NCBI GenBank assembly: GCA_029248265.1
Contig: JAQWJQ010000264.1
Coordinates: forward strand, 1-32,979
DNA length: 32,979 bases
Source: Planctomycetota bacterium
GTDB taxonomy: Bacteria > Planctomycetota > UBA1135 > GCA-002686595
Direction: 5' to 3'
The stretch's first letter is position 1. The number at the start of each line of letters is the position of its first letter. The notes under the pieces are model-generated. The model was not told where the DNA came from, did no database searches, and saw only the letters and a list, made by a program, of their open reading frames with translations. A program made the translations under genes and the position numbers. This document shows positions 18,165 through 24,309 of this stretch, one piece after another.

Positions 18165-18341
18165 TCACTTGTCGAAGACGTTCGTCTCGCTCGGGCTGAT
18201 GCGCTCCTCGACGGTCTCGACCGTGAGGTCGAGGCCCTCGAGGTCGAGGGCTTCTCCGCCTGCAGCGGCGGAGGTCTCATTGTCCTTGGCGGACACCTCG
18301 TCGTTCTCGAGGTCATCCCTTTGGTCTTTGTTCTGATTCAT
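18165..18341 (-). CDS. Small acidic peptide, candidate RiPP precursor (58 aa)
   Basis: MNQNKDQRDDLENDEVSAKDNETSAAAGGEALDLEGLDLTVETVEERISPSETNVFDK. ATG at 18341, TGA at 18165-18167, 37 nt after the stop of a B12-type radical SAM gene with an RRE-like C-terminus. Codon third positions are mostly G/C. No clear Shine-Dalgarno. The ORF track shows it only inside a longer, spurious upstream extension (18165..18773). Confidence 0.7.
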   Translation of the reverse strand: MNQNKDQRDDLENDEVSAKDNETSAAAGGEALDLEGLDLTVETVEERISPSETNVFDK

Positions 18342-18378
18342 CGTCGGTGGGGTGGGCAGAGATGGGAGGGGCAGAGGC

Positions 18379-20682
18379 TCAGCCTCGCGCGGTCGCGAGA
18401 GCCTTGGGAGCGGACGTGGGAGTCGCGGCCGCGCGCAACACCCCGAGGCGGTGGAGCTCGGCGGCGAACTGCTCGAGCTTTTGGATCGCGGCGTCGGAGG
18501 CGCCGGCGTCTCGCTGGGCCTCCACGAGGGCGCCGAGCGTCCCGCACTCACGCAGCGCGGAGAGGACGCGGGAGCCACCGTCTCGCAGCTCGACGAACTC
18601 GCCGTTCTCCGGGTCGTACAGCAGGAAGCGCTCCTTGGGATCGAGGGGCGGCAGCTTCTCCTCGGCCACGCGATCAGCGTCCCGGACGTAGCGGCCCGTG
18701 AGGAAGTCCGGGCGGGCGGCGCGGGCGAGTGGGTCGCCGAGGGTGCGGACCGCATCGGAGTGGCTGAAGCCAAGGGGGATACTGACGAGCCCGCGGCTCA
18801 CGGTCAGCTCGGGCTCGGCCTGCCGCTCAGCGCGCGCCGCCGTGCGCTCGGCGCAGCGCTCGGAGAAGCCCTGGGGTGTCTCTCCAGCGGCGAGGTGGAG
18901 GAAGTAGTGACTCTTCTGCATGAAGTAGAAGATGTTGTCCCCTGAGAAGATGGCGAGGTTGCGGCGGAACGAGGCCATCATCTCCTCGAACATCTCCGCG
19001 GCCTCCTCCTGGGTCATCCCCACGTCGGCCTCGTAGTCGTGGTAGAGGGCGAGGTCACCCGGCGCGTCGAGGACGCGGATGCCGAACTGCTCGGGCTCCT
19101 TGTAGGTCTTCGCGACCTCGTCGATGTGGAAGGTCTGGAGGGAGACCTCGCGGATGATGTCCGCGTGCTGCTCGATGAACTCGAGGGTCGCGCGTGCCTC
19201 CTCACGGGTCTCGGTCGGGAACCCGACCATCGCGTAGAAGGTCACGCTGATGTTGGCCTCCGTGCAGTTGCGGGCGACCTCCACCACCGACTTCAGGCTC
19301 TGACCCTTCATCATCATCTTCAGGATCCGCTTGGTTGCAGACTCGAAGCCGAAGAGCAGCTTGCGGCACCCGGACTCGTAGAGCCGCCTCGCGCCGTCGG
19401 CGTCATAGGCCTTCGGCTCGATGCGGGCGTCCGCCCACCAGGTGATGCCGGCCTCGGCTTCGATCAGCTGCTCGGGGAGATCCTTGATCATCCCCGGGGG
19501 CATGCAGTCGGTGATGAAGTTGAAGTGCGTCGAGGAGTAGCGGTCGCGGAGCTCGACCACGTGCCGGGCGATGGTCTCAGAGGAGCGCGTGCGGTACCCC
19601 GGGCCGATGACCGTGGGCAGGGTGCAGAAGGTGCACTCGCCGTAGTAGCAGCCTCGGTTGACGTCGTAAGGGATCACGACCTGCGGGGAGAAGTACTTGT
19701 CCAGCGGGAGCCCCTCGAGGTCCGGCGCTGGCGCGTCATCGAGCTTGATCGGGTGGGCCGACATGTTCTTGACCACCACGGGCTCCTCCGGGTTGGAGCG
19801 GTCCCACCAGGCGAGGCTCCCGACGTCGTGGAGCGGTTCCCCGGTCCGGAGCGCCTCGCAGAGCATCAGCAGGGGCCGCTCGCCCTCGTGGAAGACGATC
19901 GAATCAAAGCACTCCGCCATGCCAGGCGCAGCCATGACCTTGTCGCCGATGTAGGCGAGGAAGCCGCCGCCCATGGTGATGTGGCAGTCGGGGAGGGCCG
20001 CCTTCACCATCCGCGCCAGGGTGAGGGCGGGGATCAGTTGGCTGCCGTAGAGCACCGAGAGCCCCAGGAGCTTGGGCTTCCTCGCGAGCAGTCGGGGCAT
20101 GACCTGCTCTCGGTAGAACTCGATGAAGGGGTTCTGCTCCTCGTCCAACGTGGCCGCGAGCACCTCCTCACTGGAGTCGTTCGAGTAGGCCATCGTGAAG
20201 TTGTGGGGGGTGAGCTCGCTCGGGTAGTGCGCCGAGGAGATCAGCCGGAGCCCGTGGTAGAGCGTCCGCACCGCGGGGACGTAGCGGTCGGGGTCCCAGA
20301 ACCCGCGCTCGCTGTCCACAGGGTGGTCCTGCCCGCGGAGGATGGCCTTGGCCGACTCGACCCGGTCGATGAGGGACTGCGCAGAGGCCGCGCTCTCAGC
20401 GGCCGCGCGCCAGGCGCGCATCTGGCCCAAGGGCAAGCGGTCCCCCTGGAAGCGCTCGAGGGGGAGCCTGCGCTCGACCTTCTCCGCGGCGCGGGTCAGT
20501 GACTCGGCGGTGAGGAAGTGGTCAAAGGCCTCGACCGAGAGGTCCATCTGGTCCACGTCCGAGTAGCCGCTCGCGTGAAGCCAGGCCTTGAGGCAGGGGA
20601 GGGCCAGATGAGGTTGAGTCCAGTGCCCTTGCGGGGGGAACGCGAGGGTGACCGGGAAGTCGTTGCTGGGGAGCTGGATCAT
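18379..20682 (-). CDS. B12-binding-domain radical SAM protein with C-terminal PqqD/RRE-like domain
   Basis: Start at MIQLPSNDFPVTLAFPPQGHWTQPHLALPCLKAWL (ATG at 20682). B12-binding-like Rossmann region (LLGLSVLYGSQLIPALTLARMVKAALPDCHITMGGGFLAYI), radical SAM cysteines GCYYGECTFC (19624-19650), and C-terminal RFLLYDPENGEFVELRDGGSRVLSALREC..LEQFAAELHRLGVL resembling PqqD. Confidence 0.85.
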   Translation of the reverse strand: MIQLPSNDFPVTLAFPPQGHWTQPHLALPCLKAWLHASGYSDVDQMDLSVEAFDHFLTAESLTRAAEKVERRLPLERFQGDRLPLGQMRAWRAAAESAASAQSLIDRVESAKAILRGQDHPVDSERGFWDPDRYVPAVRTLYHGLRLISSAHYPSELTPHNFTMAYSNDSSEEVLAATLDEEQNPFIEFYREQVMPRLLARKPKLLGLSVLYGSQLIPALTLARMVKAALPDCHITMGGGFLAYIGDKVMAAPGMAECFDSIVFHEGERPLLMLCEALRTGEPLHDVGSLAWWDRSNPEEPVVVKNMSAHPIKLDDAPAPDLEGLPLDKYFSPQVVIPYDVNRGCYYGECTFCTLPTVIGPGYRTRSSETIARHVVELRDRYSSTHFNFITDCMPPGMIKDLPEQLIEAEAGITWWADARIEPKAYDADGARRLYESGCRKLLFGFESATKRILKMMMKGQSLKSVVEVARNCTEANISVTFYAMVGFPTETREEARATLEFIEQHADIIREVSLQTFHIDEVAKTYKEPEQFGIRVLDAPGDLALYHDYEADVGMTQEEAAEMFEEMMASFRRNLAIFSGDNIFYFMQKSHYFLHLAAGETPQGFSERCAERTAARAERQAEPELTVSRGLVSIPLGFSHSDAVRTLGDPLARAARPDFLTGRYVRDADRVAEEKLPPLDPKERFLLYDPENGEFVELRDGGSRVLSALRECGTLGALVEAQRDAGASDAAIQKLEQFAAELHRLGVLRAAATPTSAPKALATARG

Positions 20683-22700
20683 GGCGCCTGGTTCAGGGTG
20701 ATTTGCTGAGCGGGGAGGCCGGGGGGGGCGGCCGCGACGTCCGCAGGTGGAATGAGGACGCCGGATTGAATCAGTCCGCTGGCGGCGTCGCGGACGCCGG
20801 GGGCCTCGAGGGCCGCGGAGATTTGGGCGTGGGCCTTCGGGCTCTTGGCCTGCGCCAGCGCCTCGGCGAGGCGCACGGAGCCGCCGGAGAGCCTCACCGT
20901 ACGAACGCCCGATAGCCGGCCAGGGAGCGGGGTCGGGGCGACGACCGCGAAGGTCAAGTCGTCCGGTCCCAGGAGCCCCTCGGGTGACGCCTGGTCCGAG
21001 CCCGTCGTGGCGCGCCTCTTGATCAGGGCGTCCGTGGCTGAGCCGAGGTCGAGCTTCGTGGTGAGGAGCTCTGCGCCCAGGGACCATCGGCCTTGCCGCG
21101 CGCGCCGGGGGCCCCGGGCAGAGACGCGAATAAGGGCGTTCTCCCAGCGCAGGAGGGCATCGATGAGCGGGGCCGCCGTTGAACGCGCCACGCGGAGGCG
21201 GGCGAACGTCTCGAACGTTCGGCCGTCGGCCCTGAGCTCGCGTGCGAGCGTGAGGATGGACCCGCCTGAGAGGGACGCGAGCGCGCTCACCGAACGAGGG
21301 TAGCGCATCAGGGTCTCGCCAAATTCCCCGCTCAGGAAGACCAGCTCCGCCAGCTGCGCCTCCGGGTAGGGCAGCAGAGACCAGGTGGAGAACAGGTCCG
21401 GGTGCCCGAGGATCAGCGCCCTCTCCGCGGCGGACTCCCCCGCGCCGAGCGCCATGTCGGGTGGGACTCCAGGGATCGGACTCGAGCTCTCCGCGAGCTC
21501 CTCACCGAGGGCGCAGCCCGGCTGAGGATTCACGAGGTGGAGTGAGAGGTTGACCCCGGCGCGCAGCGCCGCGGAGGCGCAGAACTCCAGGGACTCGTTC
21601 AGCTCACCGTCGCCTTCCCCGGGCAAGCCCAGGATGAGGGAGAGGATCGGCGTGACCCCTGCGGCGGCGCAGTCGTCGACGACCTGGAGGAGGTCGACGT
21701 CGTCTCGCATGCCCTTCTGGTTGGCGGCGCGGACCGTCGCAGACGCGGACTCGATCCCGAGCAGGACGCGGTCACACCCCGCGCTCCCCATGCGGCGAAG
21801 GAGCTCGGCGTCCAGGTGGTCGGCGCGCGCCCGGACCTCCCAGGGGACCCGGACCTCACGTTCCACGAGCCGCTCGCAGAGGGCGAGGGCGTGGGCCCGG
21901 TCTGCGCCGAAGAGGTCGTGGCAAAGGTAGGCGCGCCGGGCTCCAGGGATGCCCCTGAGCGCAGCGATCTCATCCGCGAGGCGGGCGGCCGGGAGAGGCC
22001 GCGATCGGCGGCGCCACGTTCGGCCGATGGAGCAGAACGAGCAGTCGTAGGCGCAGCCTCGGCCGGAGTCGATCGGCACGAGCCCGTCCATCTCGCCGGT
22101 GATCTCCTTGTACCTCGCGATCGGGGGGAGGAGGTCCCAGGCGTAGGCCGGGAGCCCCTCGAGGTCTCGGATCATGGCTCGGTCCGGGGCGCGTCGGACC
22201 TCTCCTTCAGCGCGGAAGGTGATCCCATCCACGCTGCCTGCCGCGGGGAGACCGCCCGTCAAGGCCTCGCAGAGCTCGACGACCGTGACCTCGCCCTCGC
22301 CTCGGGCCACGAGGTCGATCGCCGGGAAGCGCTCGAGGATCGTGATGTCGACGCCGTGGACCCCGGGGCCGCCCAGCGCGATCGGCACGGTGGGCCAGCT
22401 CTCCTTGAGCTGCTCGGCGATGAGCAGCGCGATGGGCAGGGTCGCGCCCATGACTGAGAGGCCCACGATGTCCGGGCGCCCGCGGCGAGCGAGGAGCGCC
22501 GCCGCGGCTGCGGCGAGCGCGTCGCCCCCGGGGAGGTCCCCGATCCCGAGCCGAAAGGCGAGGTCCTCGAGCGCGACGTCATGGTCAGCCTCTCGCAGCG
22601 CGCCGCCGAGCCTCAAAAGGCCCGGGGGGGGCATTGAGTAGCCGAACGTGTCGGCGTGGGGGGAGGAGGCGAGCAGAATCTTCAACGGAACGGGGGGCAT
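20679..22700 (-). CDS. B12-binding-domain radical SAM protein
   Basis: N-terminal cobalamin-binding-like region (DIVGLSVMGATLPIALLIAEQLKESWPTVPIALGGPGVHG..ARGEGE) and canonical CX3CX2C (GCAYDCSFC, 22032-22055). 4-nt overlap (ATGA) with the downstream radical SAM gene. Confidence 0.87.
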   Translation of the reverse strand: MPPVPLKILLASSPHADTFGYSMPPPGLLRLGGALREADHDVALEDLAFRLGIGDLPGGDALAAAAAALLARRGRPDIVGLSVMGATLPIALLIAEQLKESWPTVPIALGGPGVHGVDITILERFPAIDLVARGEGEVTVVELCEALTGGLPAAGSVDGITFRAEGEVRRAPDRAMIRDLEGLPAYAWDLLPPIARYKEITGEMDGLVPIDSGRGCAYDCSFCSIGRTWRRRSRPLPAARLADEIAALRGIPGARRAYLCHDLFGADRAHALALCERLVEREVRVPWEVRARADHLDAELLRRMGSAGCDRVLLGIESASATVRAANQKGMRDDVDLLQVVDDCAAAGVTPILSLILGLPGEGDGELNESLEFCASAALRAGVNLSLHLVNPQPGCALGEELAESSSPIPGVPPDMALGAGESAAERALILGHPDLFSTWSLLPYPEAQLAELVFLSGEFGETLMRYPRSVSALASLSGGSILTLARELRADGRTFETFARLRVARSTAAPLIDALLRWENALIRVSARGPRRARQGRWSLGAELLTTKLDLGSATDALIKRRATTGSDQASPEGLLGPDDLTFAVVAPTPLPGRLSGVRTVRLSGGSVRLAEALAQAKSPKAHAQISAALEAPGVRDAASGLIQSGVLIPPADVAAAPPGLPAQQITLNQAP

Positions 22701-22791: not shown

Positions 22792-24309
22792 ATGAGACAC
22801 CTCCTCGACGACCAAGGGAATCCCCGAGCCCGCTCCGCTTGGCTGGAGTGGGCGCCGGTGATCGTGGCGCTGCTGCACGCGGCGACGCTCTTCGATGTCG
22901 GGCCGGTGGATGACGACTACATCGTCTATCGATACGCCCGGCACTGGGTTGAGGGGCTGGGCCCGGTCTTCAATCCCGGGGAAGTGCCGGTGGGCGGGGT
23001 GACGAGCCCGGGCTGGTTCCTCCTCGCGGCGCTGGGCCTGTGGGGAGGAGCCTCACCCGCGGTATGGACTCCGCTGGTCGGGGCCTCGAGCTTCGCGCTG
23101 CTGGTGTTCGTCGTCGGTCGATGGGCCCGGGCACGGGACAGGAGCCGCTTCGCCGAGCTGGCGCCATGGGCGGTCGCCGTGTCGCCCGCGGTTGCCTGGC
23201 ACGCGGTGGCCGGCCTCGGGACCATGCCCCTGGCGGCGGCGATCGCCCTCGGCTTTCACCGCTGGGCGCGCTGGGCCGCGGGAGAGGCGCAGGGGGTGGC
23301 GCTTCCCGGGCTGGCGTTCGCCGTCGCATGCACGCTTCGCGTCGAGGCGCTGGTCCCCTGGGCGGCGTGCGTGGTCGCCATGCGGCCCGCGCGGAGACTC
23401 GGGGTGACCGAGGTCTGGTGGATGGCCTCGCCGCTCCTCGCGCTCTTGGTGCTCTCCGGCCTGAGGTGGGAGTGGTTCGGAAGCCTCACGCCCCACGCGC
23501 TCGGGCTGAAGGCGCTCCCGCTCGCGGTCGAACTCGAGTACGGCGCTCGCTATCTCGTGCGATCGCTCTCCGAGGGAGGTCTCTCCTTGATGCTTCTCCT
23601 CGCGGTCCTCGTGCCGCGGACGGACCAGGAGGGGCGGGCGATCTCCCTCGCCGCCCTCGGGTCCCTGGTCGCCGTCCTCGGAGTCGGCGGGGACTGGATG
23701 GTCTACTCGAGGTTCCTGGTCCCGTTCGTGGGGGTCGGCGCCGTCGGCGCAGTTGGAATGGTCGCAGGCCTCGGTCGAGGGCGGCTGCGGGTGCTCCCGG
23801 CTGCCGGCGCGGCGGTGCTCGTGGTCGCGTTGCCCGGGGCGGGCTTGGTTGCGAGGCCCCAGGCCGTCTTCGAGCAGCGCTTCTTCGAGCACCACTGGCT
23901 GCGGATGGGGGCGGCCTTCGGTGACCTCGCGCCGGCAGGGAGCGCTGTCGGGGTGTCGCCGATCGGAGCGTTCGGGTGGGCCTCTCGGCTCCCGGTGGTG
24001 GACATCCTCGGCCTGACCCACGGGGCCTTCCTGCAGCAACCGCCGGACCTCGGGGGAGTCAAGGTCAAGGGGCATCACCGGCACGACGGGAGCTGGGTCC
24101 TGGACCAAGCGCCGGACTACCTGATCCTCGGGAACGGGGTGATCCAGCCTCAAACGGGCACTCTCGATGCGAACCCCTGGGAGGCGGACATCTTGGCGGA
24201 CCCGCGCTTCCATCGGATGTATCGGCCCCTCAGTCTCGTCCTCGAGGAGGGCGGCAGAGAATCGGTCGTGCCGTACTTCGCGCGGGCAGGCGTCCGCGCG
24301 GTCCGCTGA
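22792..24309 (+). CDS. Polytopic membrane protein, GT-C-type glycosyltransferase-like
   Basis: Multiple hydrophobic helices; N-terminal acidic loop motif VDDDYIVYRYARHWVEGLGPVFNPGEVPVGGVTSPGWFLL typical of AftB-like/GT-C enzymes. Confidence 0.65.
   Translation: MRHLLDDQGNPRARSAWLEWAPVIVALLHAATLFDVGPVDDDYIVYRYARHWVEGLGPVFNPGEVPVGGVTSPGWFLLAALGLWGGASPAVWTPLVGASSFALLVFVVGRWARARDRSRFAELAPWAVAVSPAVAWHAVAGLGTMPLAAAIALGFHRWARWAAGEAQGVALPGLAFAVACTLRVEALVPWAACVVAMRPARRLGVTEVWWMASPLLALLVLSGLRWEWFGSLTPHALGLKALPLAVELEYGARYLVRSLSEGGLSLMLLLAVLVPRTDQEGRAISLAALGSLVAVLGVGGDWMVYSRFLVPFVGVGAVGAVGMVAGLGRGRLRVLPAAGAAVLVVALPGAGLVARPQAVFEQRFFEHHWLRMGAAFGDLAPAGSAVGVSPIGAFGWASRLPVVDILGLTHGAFLQQPPDLGGVKVKGHHRHDGSWVLDQAPDYLILGNGVIQPQTGTLDANPWEADILADPRFHRMYRPLSLVLEEGGRESVVPYFARAGVRAVR

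Follow-up and report, generated by a model that had tools for sequence, protein, structure and literature searches.

The 58-aa open reading frame (ORF) described here, located in a 32,979-nt stretch of planctomycetal DNA (contig JAQWJQ010000264.1; called the window in the following), in all probability encodes the precursor, i.e., the substrate, of an undescribed RiPP-like pathway. This reading is based on a conserved short peptide that shares an operon with two B12-binding radical SAM enzymes (termed rSAM1 and rSAM2), co-occurs and co-evolves with them, and on the presence of a PqqD-like domain in rSAM1. As in RiPP systems, a ribosomally encoded precursor candidate is found beside putative modifying enzymes, and the C-terminal tail of rSAM1 supplies a leader recognition domain (RRE, PqqD-like) that is predicted to bind it.

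Table 1. Position of the peptide gene, its segments and the neighbouring enzyme genes in the window.
Feature	Position	Strand	Basis or remark
Type-A precursor-like peptide gene, 58 aa, ATG start	18165..18341 (stop included)	-	Kept in 50/81 family genomes
Peptide residues 1-31, N-terminus, hydrophilic, variable	18249..18341	-	Alignment; within-genus dN 0.1-0.4
Peptide residues 32-46, LDLEGLDLTVETVEE, alternating hydrophobic, leader-like	18204..18248	-	Conserved; counterparts in sister types
Peptide residues 47-58, RISPSETNVFDK, proposed core	18168..18203	-	Invariant residues, synonymous codon change only, within-genus dN=0
C-terminal PqqD-like (RRE-like) domain of rSAM1, residues about 685-751	18430..18630	-	Pfam, model
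rSAM1, B12-binding radical SAM enzyme, 767 aa, CX4CX2C	18379..20682	-	
rSAM2, second B12-binding radical SAM enzyme, 673 aa, CX3CX2C	20679..22700	-	

Translation of the minus strand between positions 18165 and 18341 yields MNQNKDQRDDLENDEVSAKDNETSAAAGGEALDLEGLDLTVETVEERISPSETNVFDK, exactly the peptide given in the earlier note on this DNA, which had also pointed out that it lacks Cys, Tyr and Trp. The same note had described the gene as hidden in an over-extended frame, and indeed the ORF track contains a 202-aa frame started by TTG (18165-18773). The ATG at position 18341 is situated 37 bases past the rSAM1 stop, and no clear ribosome-binding site was seen upstream of it; conservation within the genus points to this codon as the probable start. 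The G+C content of the window is about 70%. Searches with Pfam and NCBIfam models gave no match to the peptide, and its motifs were absent from the literature searched.

On the minus strand, rSAM2, rSAM1 and the peptide gene follow each other in a three-gene operon with the peptide at its end, the ATG of rSAM1 overlapping the stop of rSAM2 as ATGA. Pfam identified Radical_SAM and B12-binding domains in both enzymes, with the B12-binding score of rSAM1 (31.4) just under the Pfam cutoff of 32.1, and both carry the Fe-S cysteine triad. The AlphaFold models (pLDDT 88 and pTM 0.89 for rSAM1; pLDDT 85 and pTM 0.86 for rSAM2) have TsrM, MgmA, OxsB, TokK, CysS and also AprD4 as their nearest structures, all of them B12-dependent radical SAM enzymes. 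Domains, cysteine triad and fold matches lead to the prediction that rSAM1 and rSAM2 belong to this enzyme class as well.

A single-sequence search of relatives (best E=3e-26) recovered the peptide at E below 1e-5 in 25 family genomes, not counting that of the window, and a profile search in 50 of the 81 family genomes (own genome counted, and with one weak match cut by a contig end among the 50), at one copy per genome. When the profile of this peptide type, termed type A, was applied to a sample of 395 genomes from the phylum, one match outside the family was real, namely in family f49. In-depth sampling comprised Planctomycetota only, and the scan of named genomes, which relied on type-A motifs alone, returned loci whose records name Planctomycetota (or planctomycete) or unclassified bacteria. 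Among them are three complete genomes with the peptide, CP036434 (Poly30), CP036296 (Pla86) and CP036290 (Pla163), which makes a direct search for the product feasible.

In an alignment of 24 sequences, D38, L39, V44, R47, I48, P50 and E52-K58 are invariant, while the N-terminal half is hydrophilic and variable in both sequence and length. The C-terminus LDLTVExVEERISPSETNVFDK is almost invariant at the protein level with free synonymous change; among 48 distinct tail DNA sequences, codons change synonymously all along the tail (these sequences were picked by the motif P.ETNVFDK, so that the residues of the motif are fixed by selection), and an ETNIFDK variant of the core is present as well. 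Dozens of Planctomycetota species have the same last residues. Four copies from within the genus show no length change. Pairs of them differ by 6-11 synonymous and 0 nonsynonymous codons over the C-terminal 29 codons (dN=0, dS about 0.4-1.0), and by 7-14 nonsynonymous codons in the N-terminal half (dN 0.1-0.4). These observations support the leader/core-like layout proposed in the earlier note, which had named LDLEGLDL and SETNVFDK as the parts to be checked for conservation: the alternating LDLxVE and P-x-ETNVFDK are kept, the reading frame is intact in relatives, and homologous short ORFs adjoin orthologous radical SAM genes there.

The order rSAM2-rSAM1-peptide was found in nearly all examined loci. 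Within the 81 family genomes, type-A rSAM1 (identity from about 55% upwards) is present in 52, the peptide in 50, rSAM2 in 50, and both peptide and rSAM2 in 48. Hence, 48 of the 52 genomes with peptide or rSAM2 hold both, 29 of the 81 hold neither, and each of the 52 has type-A rSAM1. The four genomes with only one of the two are fragmented, at 71-76% completeness; in genome G309, the enzymes and the peptide sit on separate contigs. A distinct rSAM1 homolog of 37-41% identity (type B) occurs in 25 family genomes, which contain neither the type-A peptide nor rSAM2, and one or the other rSAM1 type is present in 77 of the 81. Since these counts come from incomplete genomes of related species, they do not represent independent events and are strong in their pattern. 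Judged by its conservation and its neighbours, the 58-aa ORF is a real, conserved gene coupled to the enzyme genes beside it.

The earlier note had further suggested that the alternating hydrophobic segment is of the kind an RRE could bind as a beta-strand. This idea gains support from the C-terminal tail of rSAM1, which on its own matches the PqqD model PF05402 with E=7.7e-5 and 23.4 bits, equal to the cutoff; eight of nine rSAM1 tails tested alone match this model (best E 1.7e-6). With the full-length protein the PqqD match is weak and falls under the Pfam cutoff, and a PDB profile search with the tail returned designed helical-repeat proteins and did not recover PqqD. The PqqD-like assignment is therefore drawn jointly from Pfam, the fold, modelled by AlphaFold as strands followed by three helices, and co-occurrence. 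Where close rSAM1 homologs extend ~160-180 residues past the radical SAM core, the peptide is encoded nearby, and next to eleven homologs with ~30 residues past the core it is lacking (L161-L171 from families f33, f97 and f78, roughly 600 aa each); one unrelated 43-aa ORF at these loci happens to end in ER. This rule is limited to the close rSAM1 clades, because no recognised peptide was found with remoter homologs that do have tails (25-37% identity; L125, L182-L187). At L125 (G009:C99), further rSAM1-like paralogs of about 32% identity lie near a 71-aa ORF starting with MPKTGEFYRC and a methyltransferase-like ORF, possibly as parts of another pathway. An RRE was also considered for rSAM2, whose model ends in strands and three helices; it is not claimed here, as there was no Pfam match and only 12% probability against the rSAM1 tail profile.

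Beyond what the earlier note had covered, several sister peptide types are recognisable by sequence. The type-B peptide is a short ORF with a variable hydrophilic N-terminus and the conserved tail YVFKIxPADPKNxFDFEDVADK. It follows directly downstream of type-B rSAM1 in 19 of 19 loci, usually overlapping the rSAM1 stop, and rSAM2 is absent from type-B loci (L106-L124, L176-L180). In the phylum sample it was detected beside rSAM1 in families f1, f5, f8 and f64, and types A and B never occur in one genome. The type-A2 peptide of f49, sometimes located several kilobases away from rSAM1, ends in ...DLHIEEIEEKHIPKDRNIFDK (L157, L159, L160, L181: HIPKDRNIFDK). Type C (f27 and f72; L158, L173, L174, L175) consists of two tandem ORFs after rSAM1, which end in ...KEGFTGQER (once KEGFTGQEM) and ...YGxEDIADK. 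Common to all types is the layout of a variable N-terminus, an alternating hydrophobic segment and a short core, and, with the one exception of KEGFTGQEM, a terminal acidic-basic pair.

A rapid phylogeny of 81 rSAM1 proteins, for which the matched region was truncated at 640 residues and the tail thereby mostly left out, recovers one clade each for types A, A2, B and C and for the tail-less group; some branches are long, and SH-aLRT is the only support measure. As the window's family holds both types A and B, and type B is also found in f5, f8 and f64, the peptide type tracks the enzyme and not the taxon. rSAM2 homologs (32-37% identity) precede rSAM1 in five of five f49 loci, in four of which the fetched stretch contains an NIFDK peptide; beside types B and C no rSAM2 homolog was found. 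In two families, rSAM2 is thus paired with the N(V/I)FDK core. One rSAM1 family with differing cores, with or without rSAM2, provides a natural experiment for the task of each enzyme.

RRE domains are known to take up precursor peptides as an added strand (PMC11117315). For the peptide studied here, we propose the segment LDLEGLDLTVETVEE as the dock, with its LDLxVExVEE stretch pairing as a strand with the PqqD-like tail of rSAM1. Docking would present the C-terminus of the peptide to both active sites, and the core RISPSETNVFDK would then be modified by rSAM1 and rSAM2, with cobalamin-dependent C-methylation or another radical C-H reaction as the likeliest chemistry. Methylation is the first guess because ApyD methylates, and so do most of the closest relatives with solved structures; related B12 radical SAM enzymes also perform other radical chemistry. 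As to the sites, rSAM1 might act near the terminal acidic-basic pair (D-K, E-R), which nearly all types share, and rSAM2 on N-(V/I)-F, a part seen exclusively in systems that have rSAM2.

Among the genes examined around the operon, no dedicated protease or transporter gene recurs from operon to operon. In 13 of 35 loci, the peptide is followed on the same strand, mostly within 30 bases, by a gene for a secreted-looking c-type cytochrome with four or five heme motifs, five CXXCH motifs making it a pentaheme cytochrome. Pentaheme loci include L043, L046, L048, L052, L091, L093, L094, L099 and L101, and a VWA-domain gene often comes after the cytochrome gene. This neighbour hints at a redox context. 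As an obligate partner the pentaheme cytochrome was rejected, since genomes of the window's genus lack its family and type-B genomes have it. Two further observations concern single genera: genus g23 has a third B12-binding radical SAM gene pointing at the peptide gene (L035:7385-8983, L102:8253-9851), and a divergent hydrophobic 505-aa ORF without Pfam match (window 22792-24309, plus strand) is a conserved neighbour of the operon, though solely within the window's genus.

The invariant core and the presence of either rSAM1 type in nearly all family genomes suggest one fixed physiological product, cofactor- or signal-like, rather than a diversified antibiotic. In mycofactocin and PQQ biosynthesis, terminal residues are cut out of a modified precursor. 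A narrower version of the precursor reading, which we regard as possible at somewhat less than even chances, holds that the terminal residues are likewise excised after modification, yielding a small-molecule cofactor or redox carrier for the cell's own metabolism. The invariant core, the single copy per genome and the near-universal occurrence in the family are in line with it, as is the cytochrome gene after the peptide, and together they match the signature by which mycofactocin was recognised (PMC3023750). Nevertheless, neither a dehydrogenase partner family nor a peptidase was identified, the window's own genus is without the cytochrome family, which type-B genomes possess, and with cores that differ among A, A2, B and C, a universal cofactor would need differing precursors. 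It is with comparable reserve that we put forward the wider picture of a phylum-wide family of precursors for B12 radical SAM enzymes, comprising at least A, A2, B and tandem C, which would lead to a conserved cofactor, redox carrier or signal in a mycofactocin-like manner by unrelated chemistry. If true, a peptide-derived cofactor, carrier or signal would be near-standard equipment of a Planctomycetota family.

The peptide might instead stay unmodified and serve rSAM1 as a small subunit for docking or regulation, its C-terminus being a binding motif and the enzymes acting, e.g., on a lipid or small molecule. This appears improbable. Conserved C-termini can serve as binding motifs, the tail-less rSAM1 relatives without peptide must have another substrate, and the related TokK, OxsB and AprD4 use small molecules; on the other hand, the most rigid residues are those that follow the putative dock, clades with the same enzyme family differ sharply in their cores, and the presence of rSAM2 tracks the core and not the leader-like segment. 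Even less credit can be given to the peptide as a scaffold or carrier of the pearlin type, on whose C-terminus, with the terminal D-K as attachment point, a small molecule is built or extended and then released: the invariant last residues and the widespread acidic-basic pair would fit, but the conserved neighbours, of which the radical SAM genes alone are constant, included no recognisable peptide-aminoacyl-tRNA ligase or any other enzyme for attachment. Invariant C-terminal motifs can also be sorting or modification tags shared by many proteins, of which this ORF would be one carrier, yet a search of the window's genome for DNA coding for ETNVFDK gave exactly one site, also when two mismatches were tolerated, which rules out a shared sorting tag and leaves hardly any room for this reading in general. 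That the ORF is a chance product of G+C-rich DNA over a longer frame, as the many overlapping frames in the mechanical ORF track might suggest, is practically refuted by its conservation across dozens of genera at a fixed place after rSAM1 and by the dN/dS pattern of its C-terminal half.

As a precursor, the peptide would add, together with its enzymes, a coherent precursor-enzyme family that lies outside all Pfam and NCBIfam models tried, in a phylum with little-explored RiPP chemistry. The named model closest to rSAM1 is rSAM_ocin_1 (TIGR03975), a RiPP maturation radical SAM C-methyltransferase with the same domain make-up. Membership was rejected at a cutoff of 281.85 (117.8 bits for rSAM1, 88 bits for rSAM2); in addition, the match of rSAM1 covers the B12-binding domain and radical SAM core only, and the precursors are unrelated. 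For rSAM2 the closest named model is ApyD (NF050148), with 197.7 bits far under the equivalog cutoff of 750, so that rSAM2 is not ApyD. ApyD beta-methylates the Tyr adjoining the C-terminus of its precursor, and the apy pathway thus resembles the one proposed here in having an RRE-containing B12-dependent radical SAM enzyme that acts near the precursor C-terminus (PMC11117315). In contrast to it, the operon in the window contains no MNIO or P450 gene, and the peptide, which lacks the ApyA motif and Tyr, ends in Lys and not in a C-terminal Asp. The combination of small peptide, PqqD-type domain and radical SAM enzyme is shared with the PQQ system (PqqA, PqqD, PqqE). Here, however, the enzymes bind B12, no PQQ genes were recognised in the operon, and identity with PqqA, which needs Glu and Tyr in its core, was rejected for want of a Tyr. 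TsrM, MgmA, OxsB, TokK and CysS share 15-22% identity with rSAM1 and rSAM2, act on other substrates, and none is associated with this precursor.

In most bacteriocin-like RiPPs the core is not the invariant part, and the peptide with its variable N-terminal half and, going by the alignments, invariant core is the opposite of this pattern. A close parallel is mycofactocin. Its precursor MftA is short, varies in length and, up to an invariant C-terminus that is conserved as protein and not as DNA, in sequence, always sits beside one radical SAM family and is frequently overlooked by gene callers (Haft 2011, PMC3023750); peptide features, invariant C-terminus and radical SAM partner all recur in the system described here. 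Membership in the mycofactocin family was rejected, since the peptide has no NCBIfam match and mycofactocin models are not among the matches of either enzyme. Likewise, the core is unrelated and without the terminal Val-Tyr, the other mycofactocin genes are not present, and there are two enzymes, both B12-binding, with the PqqD-like domain fused to rSAM1. The resemblance to mycofactocin is therefore one of logic and not of family, as sequence, enzyme class and domain layout all differ.
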